From a virus, in the IMG/VR virus record IMGVR_UViG_3300042691_008652, positions 1 through 27,479 of that record: 27,479 nucleotides of DNA. One strand, 5' to 3'. This document shows positions 1 to 21,015 of the stretch, piece by piece (position 1 is the first letter of the stretch; each line of letters begins with the position of its first letter). Under the pieces are notes generated by a model, which was given only the letters and a program-made list of their open reading frames with translations, did no database searches and was not told the origin of the DNA. A program made the translations under genes and the position numbers.

Positions 1-470
1 TGACGGGAGCTAGGTCTGGCGCGATCCTGTCCCTGACTTGGGACCGTGTGGACTTCGACGCCGGAACCATTGATTTCCAACAGATGGAGCCTGAAAACCC
101 GCTGCAGAAGCGAGCGCGGAAGGCCGCGGCCAAGGTCGCCATGACGCCGGAACTCCGGCTGCATCTGCTCGAGGCGAAGGCCGGGGCCCTGACGGGGCAC
201 GTCATCGAATGGGACGCGGCGCCCGTCCAATCCATCCGCAAGGGGTTCAGCGAGGCGTGCCGGCGGGCTGGGCTGACCGATGTGGTGCCGCACACCCTTC
301 GGCATACCCACGCGACCTTAGCGCTAGAGGGCGGCGTTGAGGTCGAGCGGATCAGCCGCCAGCTGGGGCACAGGGACAGCGCGACAACTCGGGGCATCTA
401 TCTCCACCCGTCCGCAGATTACTCAGCCCCATCGGCGCAGGCTGTAGCGCTCAGGATCGTGCGGAAGTAA
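1..470 (+). CDS. int: Tyrosine recombinase (phage integrase), C-terminal part, 5' truncated by window edge
   Basis: The frame is open from base 3 to a TAA at 468-470, so about 155 C-terminal residues are visible and the N-terminal arm-binding and core-binding parts lie outside. It begins with TGARSGAILSLTWDRV, the conserved entry to the tyrosine recombinase catalytic domain (TGxR..E/ail.L.W..vd). Box II appears as HTLRHTHAT (His-x-x-Arg at about bases 291-308), followed by LGH and then GIYLHP, which contains the likely nucleophilic Tyr. The protein would catalyse site-specific integration and excision at an attachment site. It reads rightward toward tRNA-Val 225 bp downstream, while almost everything else reads leftward. 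An internal GTG at 48 is not the true start, because the conserved domain continues upstream of it. It could belong to this phage or to a neighbouring element. Confidence 0.9.
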   Translation, partial: TGARSGAILSLTWDRVDFDAGTIDFQQMEPENPLQKRARKAAAKVAMTPELRLHLLEAKAGALTGHVIEWDAAPVQSIRKGFSEACRRAGLTDVVPHTLRHTHATLALEGGVEVERISRQLGHRDSATTRGIYLHPSADYSAPSAQAVALRIVRK

Positions 471-694: not shown

Positions 695-769
695 GGGCGC
701 GTAGCTCAGCGGTAGAGCATTGGTTTTACACACCAGCGGTCGCAGGTTCGATCCCTGCCGCGCCCACCA
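695..769 (+). tRNA. tRNA-Val (anticodon UAC), with encoded CCA; probable attachment site
   Basis: A complete cloverleaf can be folded by eye. The acceptor stem is GGGCGCG/CGCGCCC (7 of 7 pairs), and the D-arm is GCTC..GAGC. The anticodon stem TTGGT/ACCAG encloses the loop TTTACAC, giving anticodon TAC. The T-arm is GCAGG-TTCGATC-CCTGC, followed by discriminator A and an encoded CCA at 767-769. The 3' half is also read antisense as the last 14 codons of the HNH/AP2 gene, which suggests that this half is shared between phage and host as the recombination core. No second copy of the 3' half was noticed elsewhere in the window. A phage-borne tRNA is the alternative. Confidence 0.95.
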
Positions 770-4543: not shown

Positions 4544-4669
4544 TTACTTCTTCGCGGTCCACTCGACCCAGATCAGCGGCTGCCATGGCCGGTTTGATTC
4601 AACGAGGGCATAGATCGACACGCCAACCAGCGCGACAAACACGATCGAGAAAAGCCTTATACGGTCCAT
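4544..4669 (-). CDS. 41-aa single-span membrane protein, candidate holin-type component
   Basis: ATG at 4669 overlaps the end of the SPRY gene by 13 nt and has AGGA about 9 nt upstream. The product is a basic N-terminus, one membrane helix (LFSIVFVALVGVSIYALV, residues 6-23), then a Trp/Pro-rich tail (NRPWQPLIWVEW) and a Lys-Lys end. It stands immediately upstream of the endolysin gene, where holins or pinholins are often found. One helix with a short tail would make a very small holin, so this is a positional proposal. The gene is short enough to be missed by routine calling. Confidence 0.55.
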   Translation of the reverse strand: MDRIRLFSIVFVALVGVSIYALVESNRPWQPLIWVEWTAKK

Positions 4670-5250
4670 GCGGAAAATCCTGACGGTGGGGTGGCGGTGA
4701 ACGCAGCTTGCCCCCAGTTGCCCGTCATTTGGCGTGCGCCACCGTCGCCGCCGCCGAGAATATACAGCGTTCCCGTCAGGCCGGTAAACGCCGCATTGGT
4801 CCCGGCCGCCGGATTTCCCGAGTTAAACCACCCGGTTCCGGCCTTGCCCATCCAAACTTTTCCATTGTCCATATCCAGCGCGACCATGATCACATCGCCG
4901 TTGGTATACGATGTGCCGTAGGCGGAGCCAGACCCGGAGTTGTACTTGTTGCCGTTGGACGAGTACACCGCCCATCCGTTGGCGTCCTGCCCCGGAAACG
5001 ACGCGCGGCCGGCGCTGGCATTACCAACGCCGATCAGCACCGTCGAGCCGCTGTCCTTGGTAATTTCCGCATACCACTTTCCAGACGCCTTGCCGCCCGT
5101 CGCCAGATCCGACGTGTTGCCGGTGCTCGCCGATGTGCGGTTGCCGCCGGAGAGCGACGTGCCAGAACCCAGGGCCGATGGGTTCCACGTGGCATAGGTG
5201 ACGGCAGCTGCACCGGATCGGCCGAGCAAACTGTTTAGGATGCCGGGCAT
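4657..5250 (-). CDS. SPRY (B30.2-like) domain virion protein, putative receptor- or surface-binding
   Basis: The 197-residue protein has a short N-terminal segment (MPGILNSLLGRSG) and a Ser/Thr/Gly-rich linker. Residues 58-185 are SPRY-like: KWYAEIT, VLIGVGNASA, NGWAVYSSNGNKY, YTNGDVIMVALDMDNGKVWMGK and WFNSGNPAAG. The order of strands (ligand-facing G-W-x-Y, then GDVIMVALDMDNGKVW) is that of the concanavalin-like SPRY fold (PF00622), which binds proteins or sugars. ATG at 5250 has GGTGGAG 8 nt upstream. A GTG at 5259 is too close to that site. Its place just after the fibre genes suggests a tail-tip or accessory adhesin. Confidence 0.7.
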   Translation of the reverse strand: MPGILNSLLGRSGAAAVTYATWNPSALGSGTSLSGGNRTSASTGNTSDLATGGKASGKWYAEITKDSGSTVLIGVGNASAGRASFPGQDANGWAVYSSNGNKYNSGSGSAYGTSYTNGDVIMVALDMDNGKVWMGKAGTGWFNSGNPAAGTNAAFTGLTGTLYILGGGDGGARQMTGNWGQAAFTATPPSGFSAWTV

Positions 5251-5864
5251 AAGGGCCACTCCACCTGCGCTGCTGCCCTAATCTGCGTCACGGTCGTTGA
5301 CGCATCCACCGCCCGCTTAGCGCTGAGCCGCAGCCGACGAATGTTCGCGCCGATGGTGGCCCACGCATTTTCCCGAGCTGTAATCAGCGCTGCCGCCGAG
5401 GCCAGGTCCGGCGCCTCGCCCGCATCGACGGACGCTTGCAGCATGGGATAAGCCCCGGCGCCGCCCGTCGCAGCATAACGCACGGCTTCTTCAGCTGCCT
5501 CTTGGTACTCCAACGCCTGACCAGCGCCGGCCGTGATGTAGCGCTGGCGCGCGTCCTCGGCTTGCCGGTCGATCTGCGCCTTTGCCTCGGCTTTCAATGG
5601 CACGAGGTCCGCCGCGCCGTAGGTGCGCGTAACCACGACTTTTGTGCCGTCAAATTGCGCATTCTCGCCGGTCACAGGCGGGTTGCCGTCCGGCGGCACG
5701 GCGTCTAACACACGCTCCACCAGCAGGGCATCACCGCCGAGCTGCGCCCCGACAATCGCGCCCGTGCGCGTCTCGCCCTTGTAAACGATGCTTTGCGGCA
5801 GATCCGGCCACGATTGCAGCTCTGCACCCGTCGCCTGCAGGATGAGTGACGTTCCGATATTCAT
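5235..5864 (-). CDS. Putative tail-fibre assembly or accessory protein (DUF4376-like)
   Basis: ATG at 5864 shares its A with the TAA of the long fibre (TAATG), so the two are translationally coupled. Of 209 residues, the N-terminal part is beta-rich (LQSWPDLPQSIVYKGET). The C-terminal part (about 105-200) is a long helical region with RQRYITAGAGQALEYQ...EEAVRYA and ENAWATIGANIRRLRLSAKRAVD. This helical segment resembles the DUF4376-type domain found in fibre-assembly or fibre-associated proteins of alphaproteobacterial phages. It probably acts as a chaperone or as part of the fibre base. The assignment rests on position and a family resemblance recalled by eye. Confidence 0.55.
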   Translation of the reverse strand: MNIGTSLILQATGAELQSWPDLPQSIVYKGETRTGAIVGAQLGGDALLVERVLDAVPPDGNPPVTGENAQFDGTKVVVTRTYGAADLVPLKAEAKAQIDRQAEDARQRYITAGAGQALEYQEAAEEAVRYAATGGAGAYPMLQASVDAGEAPDLASAAALITARENAWATIGANIRRLRLSAKRAVDASTTVTQIRAAAQVEWPLCPAS

Positions 5865-13946: not shown

Positions 13947-14352
13947 GTGCCTCTTTCCTTTTTAGCCATCGGCAGTTCGCCGGCGTCATGAACCAGCACA
14001 GCGCGTCACCGTGCGGGCCGTAGTAGGCACGCCGAACGCCATCGAACGCGAAGCCCCACTTGGGCGCGGCTTTCTTCGTGCCCTTGTTGTTTTTCGCAGC
14101 CTTGATCTCGAGCCGCGTCACGCCTTGCGCGAACACCCACGGGAAAAACGCCTTAGCGACATCGTTTGACACGCGCCCGTGCACTTCGAGCTCTGCCGTC
14201 CAAGGGTTGTAGGCGTGGAGCAGCAGCGCGCCCCGCAGCACACCGTCATCGTCGATGATGCCCAAAGCCACGTCCGGCGTGCGGCCGAGCCCGCCGTTGA
14301 CGCGGGAAGCCCATTCGATGACGGTCTGATCGTGGCCGGCGATGAGCTTCAT
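13930..14352 (-). CDS. GNAT-like acyltransferase-fold protein (140 aa), virion-associated by context
   Basis: The layout VALGIIDDDGVLRGALLLHAY (28-48), TAELEVHGRVSNDVAKAFFPWVF (53-75), GVTRLEIKAAKNNKGTKKAAPKWGFAFDGVRR (77-108) follows the GNAT order. A G-x-(L/V) strand pair is followed by a strand with ELEVHG, a helix, and the closing KWGFAFDGVRR that corresponds to the usual lGF...g.lr ending. GNAT-like proteins occur at this genome place in podoviruses; T7 gp13 is a known example with a GNAT-like fold. The classic Q/RxxGxG/A acyl-CoA loop is not clear, so catalysis is uncertain. ATG 14352 overlaps the TGA of the ADP-ribosyltransferase-like gene. Confidence 0.6.
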   Translation of the reverse strand: MKLIAGHDQTVIEWASRVNGGLGRTPDVALGIIDDDGVLRGALLLHAYNPWTAELEVHGRVSNDVAKAFFPWVFAQGVTRLEIKAAKNNKGTKKAAPKWGFAFDGVRRAYYGPHGDALCWFMTPANCRWLKRKEAHGIEA

Positions 14353-15380
14353 TGCGCTGCCGGCTGAAGCTGATCGGCCAGCATCACCCGCTGCACCTGA
14401 TCCATGCCGTACATGCTGGCAGCGGCGGCGATGCCGTATTTTTTCACGATGTCGATGATGTCGTCGCGGAACACGACGTAGTTTCGGCTCCCCTCACCAG
14501 CAGTGCGAGAGCCTTGGTCAAGGTATTTAATGCCAGGAATGCCTGCGTCGCGGAGGCGTTCCGATCCAACCTGCGCTTTAGTCTTGTTTGGAATTAGTCC
14601 GCCGGATAGTTCGCGCATGATTGCCCCACCGATGGGGTCTGATGCGTTTTGCGCGGAAAACCTCGTGTCTGCATTTCTTCGCGCACCAGCTTCGTCAAAT
14701 CCTGACCGAAGCGCTAGGTTGTAGAAGTCATCCCACGTTTTGCGTACGCCGCTTACCGCCCCCCTAACCTTCTCGCTCTGCTGCGATAGCGGCTTGTCCC
14801 AGTCGAGGAAATCATTCGGATCGGCGTTGATACGGACCTCGTACATCTTGCCGTCAACTTTTGGCGGGTCCAGTTGTGACCATTGCTGCTTAGGTCCAGC
14901 GCCCTTGTATGTCTCCGCTACTGCCGGGCTCTCCGCAAAATACAGCCCATGGCCATACGCCTGCGCCCCTTCTCCCGTGCCAATCTTGGACATGTCGAAG
15001 CGGTCGAAGTCGTGCGGTGAGCCGTGATAGGCGCGAATGCCGGTCCTTGCCGCATCGTCCACAGCGCCGGTTGCGGCCTTGACCTGCTTCGTTCCCGGCA
15101 TCAGCGCCATGGCGAGCATGTCAGTATCGCCGGATCTGACGGCTTCCTGCGCTTGGAGCGCTTGCCCCACGCCGGGGACCGCATCGACCACGCCCAAGCC
15201 TGGGCTACCCATGCCGCGCGAGCCGGTAAGCCCTTCCACCAGTCGTGCGCGCTCCGGGCTTGCCCGTTGGTCGCCCATCAGCACGCGAGCGAGCTTGTCG
15301 CGCCATGTCGGTTCGTAGGCTGTCAGCGACCCCGACGTGCCCGCCTGCCACGGCTGATAGCCGCCCATGTCGGTCTGCAT
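14349..15380 (-). CDS. ADP-ribosyltransferase-like protein (ART-PolyVal type), probable virion cargo
   Basis: Residues 117-158 read AYHGSPHDFDRFDMSKIGTG...AYGHGLYFAESPAVAETYK, the signature of the ART domain found in phage polyvalent proteins. His119 sits in the YHG strand and Tyr147 in the GLYF strand, as in H-Y-E/D type ADP-ribosyltransferases. The C-terminal IPGIKYLDQGSR (281-292) and NYVVFRDDIIDIV (300-312) are the usual closing strands, and Asp306 or Asp307 may be the third acidic residue. A Gly/Pro/Ala-rich N-terminal 110 residues looks like a packaging or ejection leader. The start overlaps the gp10-like stop (TGATG). Transfer of ADP-ribose to a host target after ejection is the inferred role; substrate unknown. 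Confidence 0.7.
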   Translation of the reverse strand: MQTDMGGYQPWQAGTSGSLTAYEPTWRDKLARVLMGDQRASPERARLVEGLTGSRGMGSPGLGVVDAVPGVGQALQAQEAVRSGDTDMLAMALMPGTKQVKAATGAVDDAARTGIRAYHGSPHDFDRFDMSKIGTGEGAQAYGHGLYFAESPAVAETYKGAGPKQQWSQLDPPKVDGKMYEVRINADPNDFLDWDKPLSQQSEKVRGAVSGVRKTWDDFYNLALRSGFDEAGARRNADTRFSAQNASDPIGGAIMRELSGGLIPNKTKAQVGSERLRDAGIPGIKYLDQGSRTAGEGSRNYVVFRDDIIDIVKKYGIAAAASMYGMDQVQRVMLADQLQPAAQ

Positions 15381-17011
15381 CAGATCACGCCCCCAGGCTC
15401 GTAGGTGACGAGAAACCCGTTAATCCGCATTGTTTCGTCAGACGTGCCGTCGCTACCCCAGGCACCCGAGCCCCACGCGGAAACGCCCCAGGCCGAGCCG
15501 CCGACCTGCACACCCGTCTGAGCGCGGAACTTGATCGACCCGAAGGCGCCGATGCCGACGACGTTGGCCCAGTCGTTGACCTCGGCCACCGTGCTTTCCC
15601 ATGTCGAGACATCCCACGTCGCGCTATCCCATCTGGCCTGCGTACCGGACTGCGATGCGGGCGGGCTCGACAGCGTTTCCGTCTCGGAGAAGTCAAGCGA
15701 GATGCCGAGCGCGGGGCGATTGGTGCCCGTGGCGGTCACGAGCGGCTTTAGTAGCGAGAACCGCTTGACGTTGGCGGTGCCGTGCGCCTGATACGCCGTC
15801 TGGCCGACAGCCGTAATCGCGGTCGCCACATCAGCGCGTCCGGTGTTGGCGCGGTACACTCGCCCGTCCATGCCCCCAAAATAGATCTGGTCGTTGTAGA
15901 CGGCCCAGCAGTTGGCGTGGTGATTGTCGTACTCGCACCACGCGCCCGTGAGCGTGTTCATCACATATTGCTTGGCTGTGGCGTTCTCGGATGTTGGGAT
16001 GTTGACGAACAGCCGCGTCCCCGCCGCAAACACACACGCCTCCCAGCCCCATAGGCTGCCGTAGCTTGCTGCCGCATCGTTGAACGCACTCGAGATACGC
16101 TCGGTGATCGCGACCCGCTCTGCCTGGCTTTGATCGACGGAGAGCAGCTGACTAAGCGGGAACAGGCCCTCGAGCGTCAACAGCAGCAGATCGCCGCCGT
16201 AGCGGGTGAAGCAGCGCCGGCCAATGGGCGTGGGCACATCGAACACACCGACAAGGCCCCAGGTGCTGGCCGAGCTCGGATCGGTGCCCTGATACACCGC
16301 CACCTGACCACGGCTCGAGATGAACACCGCGTAATCGTCGGCACCGCTGCCGCCGTCACGGGTCCACGTCGCCATCGCCAGCAGGTATCCGCCGCGCGAG
16401 AAATTGGCGCCGAGAGGGAACTCGGTTGCAGCCCCGGCGACCGCGTCGGTTGCGAGATAGTAAGCGCTGGTGCTGTCGTTGATGACAAACCATAGCCGCT
16501 TTTTATGCAGGCACACCGACACAATGTCATCGGCCGCAACGCCGGTCAGCGACGGGCTTGCCCAAGTAGTGCCGTTGTAGTGCCGTGCCGCATCCTCGCC
16601 GTTGCAGACCCACAGGAACGCGCCTGCACTGGTCCGCATCATCGTGTGTTGAAAGCGGGCGTTGCTGAGACTGGTCACCGCTGACGACGCAACGGCGTTG
16701 CTGGTCACGTCGTAAATCGTGTCACCGGCTGCCGCGAACAGCTTGGACCCACCCGGCCCCTGCCAGACCATCAAGCTTTCGACCGGCGTGGCCGCGCCCA
16801 TGCCCCAGCTGTGATAGCGAAACCCCTTGCGGACTTCGAGCCAGCCGGGTTGTGGGAACCAATTCAGCAATTCCACCGCCCGAAGCGGCTTCATGCTGGC
16901 CAGCGCGCTTGAGGCGTCCCAGCCTTCGACCGGAGCAGGCACCGGAACCGTCCGCGTCAGCCGCGCCCGCGCCTTTCCTGCTCTCGTGGTGGCAACCGGC
17001 ACCGCCAGCAT
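15380..17011 (-). CDS. Neck/tail protein resembling P22 gp10 (head-tail stabilising, beta-propeller-like)
   Basis: The 543-residue protein begins with a basic segment, then ALASMKPLRAVELLNWFPQPGWLEVRKGF (about 38-66). This is the characteristic opening of the gp10/packaged-DNA-stabilising family (A...L.N..P.pg..e.RkGf). The body repeats short W/Y/F-rich strands (SLMVWQGPGGSKLFAAAGDTIY, GAWCEYDNHHANCWAVYNDQIYFGG), consistent with propeller blades. The C-terminus has Trp/Ser/Gly repeats (SAWGVSAWGSGAWGSD) and ends NGFLVTYEPGGVI. It would plug and stabilise the packaged head below the portal. ATG 17011 shares a base with the previous TGA (TGATG) and has GGAG 9 nt upstream. Confidence 0.7.
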   Translation of the reverse strand: MLAVPVATTRAGKARARLTRTVPVPAPVEGWDASSALASMKPLRAVELLNWFPQPGWLEVRKGFRYHSWGMGAATPVESLMVWQGPGGSKLFAAAGDTIYDVTSNAVASSAVTSLSNARFQHTMMRTSAGAFLWVCNGEDAARHYNGTTWASPSLTGVAADDIVSVCLHKKRLWFVINDSTSAYYLATDAVAGAATEFPLGANFSRGGYLLAMATWTRDGGSGADDYAVFISSRGQVAVYQGTDPSSASTWGLVGVFDVPTPIGRRCFTRYGGDLLLLTLEGLFPLSQLLSVDQSQAERVAITERISSAFNDAAASYGSLWGWEACVFAAGTRLFVNIPTSENATAKQYVMNTLTGAWCEYDNHHANCWAVYNDQIYFGGMDGRVYRANTGRADVATAITAVGQTAYQAHGTANVKRFSLLKPLVTATGTNRPALGISLDFSETETLSSPPASQSGTQARWDSATWDVSTWESTVAEVNDWANVVGIGAFGSIKFRAQTGVQVGGSAWGVSAWGSGAWGSDGTSDETMRINGFLVTYEPGGVI

Positions 17012-17718
17012 CAGCTGATGCTCCAGTTGCCATCGGTAACGTAGGGCTCAAACGCCGCTTCGTCGTTCCCGGGCGTCAATACGATGTCCGCAATGCCGCC
17101 ATCGTTGCCGATCAGCTGCGCCAGCATCACCTCGAAGTCGCGGAAGGTCTCGGCGTACTCGAGCCCGCGCGATTTCTGGTACCGCCAGACGACGCCCAGT
17201 GTGTGCAGCTCATCGGGGAATATGCTGGTGTCGGTATCGGCCGCCCAGGCGTCTTGATCCGGCGTCGTCTCGCCCGCGCCCATGCACCAGTATCGAGACA
17301 CGTACTCGTACGCCATGCTGTCGCCAGCGGTCGGGACCGGCGACATGATCAGGCTGTTACCCCTGATCCGGAAGCTGTCCCAGGGCTGCACTACGAGCCC
17401 CGCCTTGACGGCCTGCCAGCGCTGCGCCGACACGGGACCAGCCACGCGCCTGTCAGCCGTCCGGTTCCAGAACGTGTTCGGCACGATCCGCAGCAGGCCC
17501 GACGGGATCACGCCAGACTGCGTTTCCGTCGCGGTCGCCGTAAACGTCGTCTCCGTCACCGCCCATTGCCAGTCATGCCGCAGCATCAGCGCTTGCCCGA
17601 CCTGATTGGACAGGCTCAGGAGTTGGCGCACCTGATGATCGGACGCGCCGACGACAGACGTGGGACGGACGAGGCCGATGCGGTCGCTAGCGTCCTGTAG
17701 GATCGTAAGCAGGCTCAA
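17011..17718 (-). CDS. Head-tail adaptor resembling P22 gp4 / podovirus tail tubular protein A, TTG start
   Basis: The start MSLLTILQDASDRIGLVRP is the conserved first helix of podovirus adaptor proteins (MSLLTLCQDALdeIGl). That fixes the TTG at 17718 as start despite a weak upstream GGGG. HDWQWAVTETTFTATATETQ and WDSFRIRGNSLIMSPVP, with MAYEYVSRYWC, are the usual middle motifs (W.w...e......G...Y.lP; y..ri.g..l...P.p..g.....Y.s). The 235-residue protein would bind below the portal ring and connect to the gp10-like protein encoded next. It overlaps the 98-aa upstream gene by 32 bp. Confidence 0.75.
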   Translation of the reverse strand: MSLLTILQDASDRIGLVRPTSVVGASDHQVRQLLSLSNQVGQALMLRHDWQWAVTETTFTATATETQSGVIPSGLLRIVPNTFWNRTADRRVAGPVSAQRWQAVKAGLVVQPWDSFRIRGNSLIMSPVPTAGDSMAYEYVSRYWCMGAGETTPDQDAWAADTDTSIFPDELHTLGVVWRYQKSRGLEYAETFRDFEVMLAQLIGNDGGIADIVLTPGNDEAAFEPYVTDGNWSIS

Positions 17719-17983: not shown

Positions 17984-18034
17984 ATTGGGGCTCCATCTGC
18001 CCCCCGTCTCACGTGAAACGCGTGAAACGTCAGA

Positions 18035-18274
18035 TCAGGCACCCACGAACGGACACACGTCGCGGATCGTCAGCGTCGCGGTGCCTGATCCAGACAGCAC
18101 CTTGCTCGCCCACGAGCGGCCGACGTGCGTGCCGGCCTGCGTGACGTGGATGACGACATTTCGCCCGTCAGTCGGCGCCGTGCCGCTATAGCTGGTAAGC
18201 GACGCAGATCCGGCTGAGGCCGAGCCCGTGCCGAGCAGAATGCCGCCCTTGTAAACCGCAATGGTGCTGGCCAT
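18035..18274 (-). CDS. Small beta-rich virion-type protein (79 aa)
   Basis: The start at 18274 is set by AAGGGGGA about 5 nt upstream. Upstream in-frame sequence is Arg-rich and non-conserved in style. The 79 residues are Ser/Thr/Gly/Ala-rich with alternating hydrophobics (STIAVYKGGILLGTGSASAG, RNVVIHVTQAGTHVGRSWAS, GTATLTIRDVCPFVGA), pointing to a small beta barrel or Ig-like fold. It could decorate the capsid or neck. No named family is recognised. It lies 10 nt after the helix-hairpin-helix gene. Confidence 0.6.
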   Translation of the reverse strand: MASTIAVYKGGILLGTGSASAGSASLTSYSGTAPTDGRNVVIHVTQAGTHVGRSWASKVLSGSGTATLTIRDVCPFVGA

Positions 18275-18284
18275 GGTGTCCCCC

Positions 18285-18725
18285 TTATCCGGCTGCCGGC
18301 TGATCCGCTTCCGTGCGGCGCCGCTTTGGCGCTTCGGCTTGCAGCGCTTCCAACGCCTCGAGCTTCTTCGCGGCGAGCAGGTTCCGCGCGGCCTTGCCGA
18401 AGGTATAAATACCCATTCCGAGCCCTTTGGCCGCTGCCTCATCAAGCCCCGCCAGTTCCTCGGCCGTGCGAACGCCCTTCAATCGCAGCGCCATGGCGAG
18501 GCCCTTGTCGATGCCTGGCACTTCCGTCAACGGCGTGCCCTTGATCTCGATTTCGCCCTTGCCGGCCTCATGCGCCTGCCACTCGAGCGGGAAGCGGGCC
18601 ACGTCCTGCGGCGTCGCTTTGCGGATGAGGGTCTGGCCTTCGCCGATCCACGAGATTTCGACCATGTCGAGCTTCGTGTCGTCGTCCTTGAAGAACTTAG
18701 CCCTGAGCTTCGTCGGCGTTGTCAT
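18285..18725 (-). CDS. Helix-hairpin-helix protein in the head block (146 aa)
   Basis: The N-terminal 55 residues are a beta-rich domain with DMVEISWIGEGQTLIRKATPQD, resembling small phage proteins that interpret the M.eI...g..ti.r..t..D pattern. Residues 65-92 (LTEVPGIDKGLAMALRLKGVRTAEELAGL) match the helix-hairpin-helix pattern of paired PGI.kg.A..L...Gi.t...La, a nonspecific DNA-binding or protein-contact module. A Lys/Glu/Ala-rich helix closes the protein. ATG 18725 has GGAG 6 nt upstream, better than the TTG/ATG pair around 18743-18746. It overlaps the DUF115-like gene by 29 bp. A part in DNA handling at the portal vertex is possible but unproven. Confidence 0.6.
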   Translation of the reverse strand: MTTPTKLRAKFFKDDDTKLDMVEISWIGEGQTLIRKATPQDVARFPLEWQAHEAGKGEIEIKGTPLTEVPGIDKGLAMALRLKGVRTAEELAGLDEAAAKGLGMGIYTFGKAARNLLAAKKLEALEALQAEAPKRRRTEADQPAAG

Positions 18726-19530
18726 GGGTGCTCCGTAGGTCATCAATCATTTTTTCGTGCGCAGCTTTCCACATTGCGGGAAGCAGGCCGTCGCCCTTCA
18801 CGTCAATCCGCATGCCGGCCTTGACAAAGCGGGGATAAAGATCGGCGAACATCTGCGCCTGTGCGGCCCATGTGCCGGTCGCCATGTAGCTTTTGCCCTG
18901 AAAAACAAACTCCATTTCATGCGCCGCGTTCTGGCCGCTGTTGTCGTAGGCGTGGTCCCGGCCCTCGCGGTGCGAGCTGTCCATGCCATAGACCGTGACG
19001 TGGCGGATGCCGGAGAGCAGCATCAGCTGCAGGCTGTGCAGCCCTACGGTGTTGGCTGGCGCCGTAATCGTCGCGTCCGCGCCCATCAGATCGTGCGCGT
19101 CATTGTCGAGCGCGGCATGCCACAGCTGCACACGCACACCCGTCCCGATCAGCCGCCGCAACAGCAAGGGGCTAGCTTGGCTGGCGATCATGTAGCGCAC
19201 GCCTAGAAGCGGTTGCTTGATCCACTGATCTGCCACCGGGTTGGCGTCCATGACCACGCAGACGCTCGGCCGCACACCGCAGTGCGATCGAAGCCAATCG
19301 TGAGCGCCGTTGACGCACCAAATCTCGGCTGTCTCGCGATGGGCTCGAATGGCGTCGATGTAGTCGGCGGCGGATGGCCCCCCAGCCACCATTACCGCCC
19401 GCTTTGTCTGGAACGTCGGCAGCCCGTATTGAGCCGCCGCCGTCATGTTTGCCGCGATGTTCTCGACGAACACCGACCTGTCGGCGTTGGTCCCGTGGAT
19501 GAACTCGACTTTGTTCAGGGCAACGCCCAT
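18697..19530 (-). CDS. DUF115 / MptE-like Rossmann-fold protein in the head block (277 aa)
   Basis: The core RAVMVAGGPSAADYIDAIR (44-62) is the glycine loop of the DUF115/6-hydroxymethylpterin diphosphokinase MptE-like family. It is followed by EIWCVNGAHDWL (69-80), SVCVVMDANPVAD (89-101), then THETA-like APANTVGLHSLQLMLLSGIR (157-176) and VTVYGMDSS (178-186). The order nucleotide loop, second substrate loop, Asp, then VG..al.lA...G...i.l.G.D is that of this family, which includes the domain of the flagellin-modifying Maf proteins. It would bind a nucleotide-linked donor. ATG 19530 has GGAG 8 nt upstream. Why a head operon carries it is unknown; virion or host-surface modification is an inference. 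Confidence 0.65.
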   Translation of the reverse strand: MGVALNKVEFIHGTNADRSVFVENIAANMTAAAQYGLPTFQTKRAVMVAGGPSAADYIDAIRAHRETAEIWCVNGAHDWLRSHCGVRPSVCVVMDANPVADQWIKQPLLGVRYMIASQASPLLLRRLIGTGVRVQLWHAALDNDAHDLMGADATITAPANTVGLHSLQLMLLSGIRHVTVYGMDSSHREGRDHAYDNSGQNAAHEMEFVFQGKSYMATGTWAAQAQMFADLYPRFVKAGMRIDVKGDGLLPAMWKAAHEKMIDDLRSTHDNADEAQG

Positions 19531-19544
19531 AGGTTAGCTCCGGA

Positions 19545-20036
19545 TTAGGTCTCGCGGATCGCTGGCCAGGACGCCTTGACCTCGATGCCGGCGGCGCCGT
19601 TGGCTGCCGTCGAAGCGCTCGATACGAGCACCACGCCGTCAATCTTAACCGCGCCGGCTGCCGTTGCATCGTCGAGAACGCCAGCAGAAGCCGTCGTCCA
19701 CAGCTGCGTGTCGGCCACGGCGCTGGCTTTGGTCCGCACCTTGATGTTCGTGCCACGGACAGCGATCCAGCCGTATTCGCCAGCCGCGAAAGCGTTCTGG
19801 GCGAACCCGATGGCATCGGACTGAGCGGCCAGCGTCGAGGTCAGCGAGTAGGCGTCAAAATCCTCGTTGATGCCCACCGCCTGGTACTGCGTGATTGCGC
19901 CGGACGAGACGCAATAGACCCATTCCGTGCCGTCCGTACCCTGGATGCGCTGCCCCAGCTTGAAGTCAGCCGTCGTCGTCGTGTCGGTCAGGCGCGGCCC
20001 GATCAACCCGCTCGTTGCATAAAACGTGTTCGGCAT
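19545..20036 (-). CDS. Capsid decoration / stabilisation-type protein (163 aa)
   Basis: ATG 20036 is preceded by AGGAAGGA, a strong site. The product begins MPNTFYATSGLIGPRLTDTT and contains FKLGQRIQGTDGTEWVYC (26-43), QSDAIGFAQNAFAAGEYGWIAV and GTNIKVRTKASAVADTQLW. The pattern of a G-x-x-V/I barrel with GFAQ..f..GEYGW.a..G...v resembles small capsid cement proteins of the DUF2190 kind. It directly follows the capsid gene with a 22-bp gap. Low Cys and high Ala/Thr/Gly fit a surface-exposed beta barrel. A head-tail joining role is the alternative. Confidence 0.6.
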   Translation of the reverse strand: MPNTFYATSGLIGPRLTDTTTTADFKLGQRIQGTDGTEWVYCVSSGAITQYQAVGINEDFDAYSLTSTLAAQSDAIGFAQNAFAAGEYGWIAVRGTNIKVRTKASAVADTQLWTTASAGVLDDATAAGAVKIDGVVLVSSASTAANGAAGIEVKASWPAIRET

Positions 20037-20058
20037 TGTTTCAGTCCTTCCTGACAGA

Positions 20059-21015
20059 TTAGGCGCAGATGACGGCCTGGCGCTCGCGGTTTGAAACGGT
20101 CATGTTGCCGGCGAGGTACATCGGCATCACCATCGCGTCTTGGTTCACGGAGGCCTTATCGCCAGCCGGCTTCATCCAGCGGCCTTTCGCCTTGCGCACG
20201 AATAGGTAGTCCGTGTTGAGCATATACATGCGCGTGGCGTTGCACTGGTCGTCGTACACCACAGGCAGGTTGCCCATAAACGTCAGGTTCGTAAACCCGG
20301 CCCCTGCGCCCTTGTCGTCGCTGAACCGCTGGTTCACCTGCAACGAGTTCAGGTAGTACAAGTAGTAGGTCTGGCCGGCGACGCAGAGATCAGGCTTGTC
20401 CGCGCCGCGGATCACGTTGATGTGCGCCGTGTTCATGGCGTTCTGGATGGTCGTGGCCGAGGCCGTGACGCCATTGGTCGAGAAGTCGTAGACGTAGTTT
20501 CTCCACCAGCTGTAGGTGCTGCCGGAGATGCCGCCGACCGTGTTGGTATTGGTGTCGGCAACGAGCAGCTGCAGCCCGCCGAACTCCTTGCCGCCGGAAC
20601 CCGTGCCATCGGCATAGAGCGCCGTCGCCACCGTGTTTTTCAGCGACTTCTCAAGGTTGCGGATACGCGACTTGAGCAGGTTGTGCACCGCCTCGCGCCC
20701 GCTGTTCTGGATTTCCTCAAGGCCGGTGATGACCACGTTGCCGGCGAGCTGCTTGTAGGCGTACTCGGCAGCCGTGAACGTCTCGGACGATGAAATGTCC
20801 AGTGCTTCGGCGCCCGTGTACCAGTTCACGGTTCCGTTCTCGGCATACTCAAGCTCCTGGACGATGGAACGGCCGGTCGCGGTGTTGCCGTTGCCCTTTC
20901 GCTCGATGGCGCGGAGCAGGGCGTTGTGGTTCGTGATGTTGTCCGCGAGCTCGCCGGAATAGCCCTGCAAGGTCGTGGTTACGATGTCCGTGAAGGACGA
21001 GTTAGGAGATGCCAT
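20059..21015 (-). CDS. Major capsid protein
   Basis: The 318-residue protein lies directly after scaffold and before the decoration-type gene. SFTDIVTTTLQGYSGELADNITNHN (7-31) is the N-arm. NGTVNWYTGAEALDISSSETFTAAEYAYKQ (about 59-88) and GNVVITGLEEIQNSGREAVHNLLKSRIRNLEKSL (92-125) correspond to the E-loop and spine-helix order of HK97-fold coats. NLTFMGNLPVVYDDQC (about 248-263) and YMLNTDYLFVRKAKGRWM form the closing strands. It forms the icosahedral shell. The Shine-Dalgarno is weak for what should be the most abundant product (only GCGAG about 15 nt from the ATG), so coupling to the scaffold gene 30 nt upstream may matter. Confidence 0.85.
   Translation of the reverse strand: MASPNSSFTDIVTTTLQGYSGELADNITNHNALLRAIERKGNGNTATGRSIVQELEYAENGTVNWYTGAEALDISSSETFTAAEYAYKQLAGNVVITGLEEIQNSGREAVHNLLKSRIRNLEKSLKNTVATALYADGTGSGGKEFGGLQLLVADTNTNTVGGISGSTYSWWRNYVYDFSTNGVTASATTIQNAMNTAHINVIRGADKPDLCVAGQTYYLYYLNSLQVNQRFSDDKGAGAGFTNLTFMGNLPVVYDDQCNATRMYMLNTDYLFVRKAKGRWMKPAGDKASVNQDAMVMPMYLAGNMTVSNRERQAVICA

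Follow-up and report, generated by a model that had tools for sequence, protein, structure and literature searches.

A Maf-like DUF115 domain in a fixed slot of podovirus head operons is a candidate virion-protein glycosyltransferase

Introduction

Maf enzymes O-glycosylate Ser/Thr residues of flagellin, and their central domain, pfam01973, resembles the sialyltransferase Cst-II (PMC11339370). Maf binds flagellin directly in the cytoplasm and modifies it ahead of chaperone binding and export (PMC4065374). Few phages are documented to have glycosylated proteins in their particles; a precedent is the capsid glycosylation of mycobacteriophages, as cited in PMC11256854 and PMC12691614. The PF01973 domain (DUF115/MptE-like) is itself known, and similar phage proteins already carry the automatic name 'MptE-like'. 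We found no relevant paper on DUF115/MptE in phages, including in head operons, in the open-access literature.

Here we describe a DUF115 gene that lies among the head genes of a podovirus. What is new is the fixed slot in which the gene recurs, the modular partners that accompany it, and a proposed reassignment, from sequence comparison and predicted structure, from pterin to glycan enzyme.

A DUF115 gene embedded in a podovirus head operon

The stretch of DNA analyzed here (the window) spans an entire virus record, 27,479 bases long, and its minus strand carries the head operon of a podovirus. The operon runs in the order terminase, P22-type portal, major capsid protein, decoration protein, DUF115 protein, helix-hairpin-helix (HHH) protein, two proteins of 79 and 98 aa, and SU10-type head-tail adaptor (17011-17718; SU10_adaptor, E 3.8e-10). 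The capsid gene (20059-21015; phrog_9953, E 6.4e-89), which serves as the anchor of our comparisons, encodes a relative of the capsid proteins of Bradyrhizobium phage ppBjS10J-1 and Myxococcus phages Mx8 and Mx9, and the virus is an Mx8-like podovirus.

The DUF115 reading frame is real, extending on the minus strand from an ATG at 19530 to a stop at 18697 and encoding 277 aa. The gene preceding it (19545-20036, minus strand; phrog_29386, E 6.5e-7) specifies a Ser/Thr-rich, decoration-type virion protein of 163 aa whose stop (19545) is 14 bp from the DUF115 ATG, with a ribosome-binding-type GGAG immediately 5' of that ATG (19531-19543). The slot is closed downstream by the HHH gene (18285-18725, minus strand), which was recognized by its order in relatives and by an HHH_5 match below the cut-off (E 2.4e-4); its likely ATG at 18725, preceded by a GGAG of its own, falls within the 3'-terminal part of the DUF115 gene. 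This arrangement bears out the earlier note's description of a translationally embedded gene. A simple consensus scan of positions 18000-20400 revealed no promoter-like or terminator-like site.

Two orthologues in matching contexts, together with a dN/dS of about 0.23 (0.157/0.675) between the window and the first of them, indicate that this is not a chance reading frame. One orthologue (L002) is 77% identical and likewise follows the decoration gene; the other (L003) is 83% identical, has lost its 5' end at a contig edge, and precedes the same adaptor and stabilization-type genes. The gene is under purifying selection, and changes faster than its neighbors, for which the window and L002 share 97% (capsid), 90% (decoration) and 88% (HHH) identity. 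These two are the only direct homologues of the window protein within IMG/VR. None was found among 50,697 isolate-phage records, in NCBIfam, in the PDB by single-sequence search or in GTDB genomes by motif search, and the domains of two relatives likewise gave no isolate-phage match.

Several other features of the record were observed. The C-terminal part of a tyrosine integrase (51-467, plus strand) is followed 225 bp further on by a complete tRNA-Val gene (695-769, plus strand), which is overlapped on the opposite strand by an HNH_3/AP2 endonuclease reading frame (729-1268). No second copy of 14 nt or more of the tRNA-Val sequence occurs within the window, which places the other attachment end outside the contig. 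A gene at 14352-15380 (minus strand), downstream of a stabilization-type gene, weakly matches ART-PolyVal ADP-ribosyltransferase (PF18760, 3e-6, below cut-off), and a small SPRY-domain protein (PF00622, 6e-11) is encoded at 4660-5259 (minus strand), adjoining tail-fiber-like genes.

Conserved motifs and predicted fold

Residues 21-188 of the protein match PF01973 with E 6.4e-11 and 42.8 bits, above the curated cut-off of 34.6, which confirms the family assignment made in the earlier note. Among 20 family domains, ten residues are invariant (G51, P52, S53, L80, S117, P121, G174, G182, D184 and G248) and others, including D95, H138, H193, Q224, A225 and G246, are nearly so. Most of these fall in four motifs. 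The first is AGGPSA (residues 49-54; 19369-19386, minus strand), a nucleotide-binding-type loop whose Gly-Pro-Ser is retained in 20/20 domains; the loss of this loop from relatives, which had been named beforehand as grounds for rejecting the reading, is not seen. The second is VMDANP (residues 93-98; 19237-19254, minus strand), in which D95 is kept in 19/20 domains and the position two residues further is Arg in 14/20 and never Asp. The third, GMDSSHREGRDHAYD (residues 182-196; 18943-18987, minus strand), contains the invariant G182 and D184 and, in 19/20 domains, H193. The last, GDGLLP (residues 246-251; 18778-18795, minus strand), lies outside the Pfam model and contains the invariant G248.

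An AlphaFold2 model built from the 20 family sequences (pLDDT 86, pTM 0.82) has as its best structural match the Maf protein 5mu5 (Z 18.6, rmsd 2.9 over 196 residues, spanning model residues 42-256, at 15% identity). In the model, the 277-aa window protein corresponds approximately to the Maf central domain with one helix at each end. Lower scores were obtained for Methanocaldococcus jannaschii HPPK (8sd5, Z 13.3), SteA (11.3), the sialyltransferase CstII (10.5), thiamin pyrophosphokinase (10.3) and GT29 sialyltransferases (about 9). Foldseek returned the same top two, and a sequence profile of the 20 domains gave the same ranking, with 5mu5 at 6e-16 versus 8sd5 at 1e-6. The Rossmann-type fold and the relation to Maf that had been proposed from motifs are therefore supported by both profile and predicted structure.

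The profile alignment also separates the two candidates. The GPS loop and the G-x-D are retained in both Maf and HPPK, and Maf also keeps a His-rich stretch at H193. The DLDGD of HPPK aligns mostly with D-A/P-R of the phage proteins; the second Asp of this run occurs in 0/20 phage family domains. By analogy with thiamin pyrophosphokinase, DLDGD is probably the metal/ATP-site run of the M. jannaschii enzyme. Because this acidic run is absent, the pterin pyrophosphokinase side of the first reading is unlikely, and by sequence and predicted structure the window protein is Maf-like rather than MptE-like, with a putative activity to match.

A fixed position among the head genes

We collected relatives of the capsid gene from IMG/VR and searched their records with PF01973. 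The domain is present in 21 of 79 records with a related capsid gene, above cut-off in 20 of the 21. The L078 member (read as L118) scores below cut-off yet aligns with the others. Bacterial genomes gave 6 carriers among 72 capsid-bearing loci, with the gene in the same slot, in assemblies of Acidithiobacillales, Lysobacterales, Chloroflexota, Isosphaeraceae, Hyphomicrobiales and Rhodopila. In both surveys together, all 27 PF01973 matches fall in the interval between the decoration gene and the HHH gene. The distance from the capsid stop to the PF01973 gene is mostly 285-1060 bp (529 bp in the window), and where it is larger (L024, L035 and L084) extra genes precede the domain. Loci that lack DUF115 have no further gene of at least 100 aa in the slot in 91 of 102 cases.

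On a 137-capsid tree, the gene switches between present and absent at least 14 times, and the slot is occupied in 29 of the 137 rows, or about one in five observed slots of the lineage. Position is conserved among related podophages in that the slot is the same in every carrier of the two capsid-based surveys; most relatives do without the gene. Likewise, the earlier remark that morphogenesis operons seldom carry metabolic-type enzymes holds for isolate Mx8-like phages, of whose 12 records none contains PF01973, but not for this lineage.

The converse survey recovered 80 loci by DUF115 motifs alone, genomic position not being a search criterion. The diverse family alignment yielded no motif fit for scanning and a narrower alignment of glycosyltransferase-fused members of the lineage was used, so that the share of fused proteins recovered (69/80) is biased. 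An Mx8-type capsid gene is upstream in 61 of the 61 loci that have at least 2.2 kb of upstream sequence, and the HHH gene is downstream in 78 of the 80. Surveys in both directions thus tie a glycosyltransferase-type gene to virion genes. The DUF115 tree has long branches, and its deep branching order is not settled.

Three loci contain HNH-type endonuclease-like genes within the slot region (L059:1529-1978, L080:3857-4366 and L096:9003-9491), possibly linked to frequent gene exchange there. A second recurrent insertion place, between the adaptor and stabilization-type genes, holds long unidentified proteins of about 340-480 aa (L037-L045, L025 and L069).

Partner domains and candidate acceptor

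DUF115 stands alone in the window and in L002, L003, L058, L063/L064, L068, L140 and L149. Elsewhere it follows a GT-A domain (L059, L079, L080, L082, L083, L085 and L096) or, in L084, another N-terminal domain. A C-terminal methyltransferase is added to the pair of GT-A and DUF115 in four loci, of the FkbM type (PF05050) in L056 and L188 and of the Methyltransf_24 type in L078 and L088, and is joined directly to DUF115 in seven (L018, L021, L022, L023, L152, L172 and L173). Two further members (L024 and L035) have an N-terminal methyltransferase-type domain, with a separate glycosyltransferase-like gene directly upstream. These separate genes lie at L024:9966-10694 (phrog_28018, with a DCD motif) and L035:7757-8539. 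In L059 and L079, a separate FkbM gene (PF05050) follows the fusion.

The N-terminal domains of fused relatives match PHROG glycosyltransferase (1.7e-20 and 8e-31), and PHROG methyltransferases are matched as well. Their DUF115 parts match PHROG alpha-2,3-sialyltransferase (5e-6 to 8e-6). The N-terminal partner domain also matches glycogenin (2e-4), and the fold modeled for it resembles those of glycogenin and GT6 enzymes. In tblastn searches the fused GT-A domain matches proteins of its own kind, such as P1 PmgQ and P7 HdmD, with no match over the DUF115 part. The N-terminal GT-A domain of L109 is about 28% identical to P1 PmgQ, which one record calls a putative morphogenic function protein; PmgQ might also glycosylate virions. 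The window protein is without the fused glycosyltransferase and methyltransferase domains, which carry most of the functional signal. As a candidate defense system, the window protein has no PADLOC match, and a fused relative matches mad2 weakly in its methyltransferase region (E 7e-4); this reading was rejected.

Comparison of the window with L018, in which DUF115 is fused to a methyltransferase, reveals unequal divergence across the slot. The capsid proteins are 90% identical and the HHH proteins 66%, while identity is 26% for decoration and 28% for DUF115, as if both of the latter had been swapped. Across 21 loci, DUF115 and decoration do not covary significantly when the capsid is taken into account (p 0.11). 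The Ser+Thr content of decoration proteins is 21.0% in carriers versus 17.5% otherwise; the capsid and HHH proteins of carriers are not enriched, and the adaptor is slightly richer in Thr. The enrichment has p about 4e-4 without tree correction and loses significance after correction for relatedness (median p 0.06 to 0.125 in several tests). For this reason, and because the first row set included a mis-assigned HNH gene (L059), it is a lead only. If virion proteins are glycosylated, the decoration protein encoded upstream is perhaps the likeliest acceptor.

Discussion

We hold with moderate confidence that the DUF115 product works in the cytoplasm as a glycosyltransferase whose acceptor is a virion protein, perhaps the one specified by the upstream decoration gene. 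A Maf-type enzyme would be produced late in infection together with the head proteins, take a sugar from a host-made nucleotide-activated donor and, while the head is being assembled or beforehand, transfer it in the cytoplasm to Ser/Thr of a freshly synthesized virion protein. Late, co-translated expression beside the substrate would fit such a scheme. In relatives, the GT-A glycosyltransferase might add another sugar, and the FkbM-type or other SAM methyltransferase might O-methylate it. The slot could then be regarded as a modular virion-glycosylation cassette, of which the window phage would have the minimal, one-domain form. The virion glycan might serve in masking, adsorption or stability.

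The alternative that survives best, itself unlikely, is that the protein modifies host-surface glycans (capsule, LPS or other) during infection or lysogeny, excluding superinfecting phages or freeing progeny. Many phage glycosyltransferases act on O-antigen, this phage looks temperate from its integrase fragment and tRNA-Val, and both the glycosyltransferase-type fold and the partner domains would suit such a role. However, the gene belongs to the head operon, overlaps the next gene and has no promoter-like site in the region scanned, whereas lysogenic-conversion genes usually have their own promoter; its position is also fixed across deep divergence, unlike theirs. The earlier suggestion that the protein may modify capsid, fiber or surface glycans therefore pointed in the right direction, with a virion protein favored by the context and fiber or host glycans less so.

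A structural or assembly role, in which the Rossmann-type domain would bind nucleotide, sugar or nothing and help to fold or deposit the decoration protein, is improbable as well. It would accord with the fixed position beside the decoration and HHH genes and with the joint divergence of decoration and DUF115 between the window and L018. Against it, pocket-type motifs persist in nearly all members despite identities of about 20-34%, the GT-A and SAM methyltransferase fusions point to catalysis, and most relatives manage without DUF115. We give still less credence to a DNA- or small-molecule-modification enzyme (for a hypermodified base or a nucleotide sugar) for which a place in the late operon would be incidental. 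Phages do glycosylate DNA, and the fused methyltransferase domain of L116 matches a PHROG named DNA methyltransferase, but the recurring partners are FkbM-type and generic class I methyltransferases, the gene is located among head genes, and the closest solved relative in sequence and fold modifies protein. Most improbable is a 6-hydroxymethyl-7,8-dihydropterin pyrophosphokinase serving as an auxiliary metabolic gene, for which Pfam's name for the family and the second fold rank of M. jannaschii HPPK speak, since the second Asp of DLDGD is missing from all 20 domains (usually replaced by Arg), Maf is closer in both profile and fold, no folate context is seen and the fusions are of glycan type.

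If glycosylation of a virion protein is correct, an enzyme slot beside the decoration gene that recurs in about one-fifth of a whole capsid lineage, with sugar-transfer and methylation modules that can be exchanged, would turn virion glycosylation by phages into a general, testable strategy, and many phage entries named 'pterin pyrophosphokinase MptE-like' would be re-read as glycosyltransferases. This reading points to one specific acceptor, the product of the adjoining decoration gene. We also put forward, tentatively and as something that may well prove wrong, a broader scheme for a widespread, mostly uncultured podovirus lineage. A modular glycosylation cassette in a fixed head-operon slot would use decoration as its acceptor, and because enzyme and acceptor would be swapped together, the glycan coat of the head could be varied by cassette exchange.

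The mycobacteriophages Che8 and Rita, as cited in PMC11256854, have their own glycosyltransferases and capsid glycans and are unrelated phages; in Maravista, the glycosyltransferase genes lie near the genome 3' end, outside the head operon. We found no link between DUF115 and this glycosylation. In BFVD, 'MptE-like' proteins of uncultured Caudovirales phages (A0A6J5PVH5, A0A6J7XC21 and A0A6J5L5C1) are similar to the phage protein described here (Foldseek E 3e-18 to 2e-16, 25-28% identity); the names are automatic, and these long proteins may be fused forms like those of the slot. A giant-virus DUF115 protein (BFVD A0A5B8IGA8, Mimiviridae sp. ChoanoV1) also matches the model (Foldseek E 7.7e-7).

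Among characterized enzymes, the GT42 sialyltransferase CstII (1ro7) and the GT29 sialyltransferases may share the core fold, with scores clearly below that of Maf (Z about 10.5 and 9) and around 10-16% identity in a fold-level comparison, and fused phage members match a PHROG sialyltransferase. The archaeal 6-HMP pyrophosphokinase MptE (8sd5) shares the Pfam family and core fold (Z 13.3) and differs from the window protein in genomic context, in its DLDGD run and in lacking the extra C-terminal G-x-G-L-L-P motif. Maf of Magnetospirillum magneticum (5mu5) is encoded in a flagellin island rather than a phage head operon and is about 15% identical. It has three domains (N-terminal Rossmann-like, central and C-terminal helical), where the 277-aa window protein has one, and among the flanking domains of Maf is one with weak methyltransferase-like motifs (PMC11339370). 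Nonetheless, it is Maf that the window protein most resembles, in the fold and, within the aligned stretch, in the GPS loop, the G-x-D and the His that follows.
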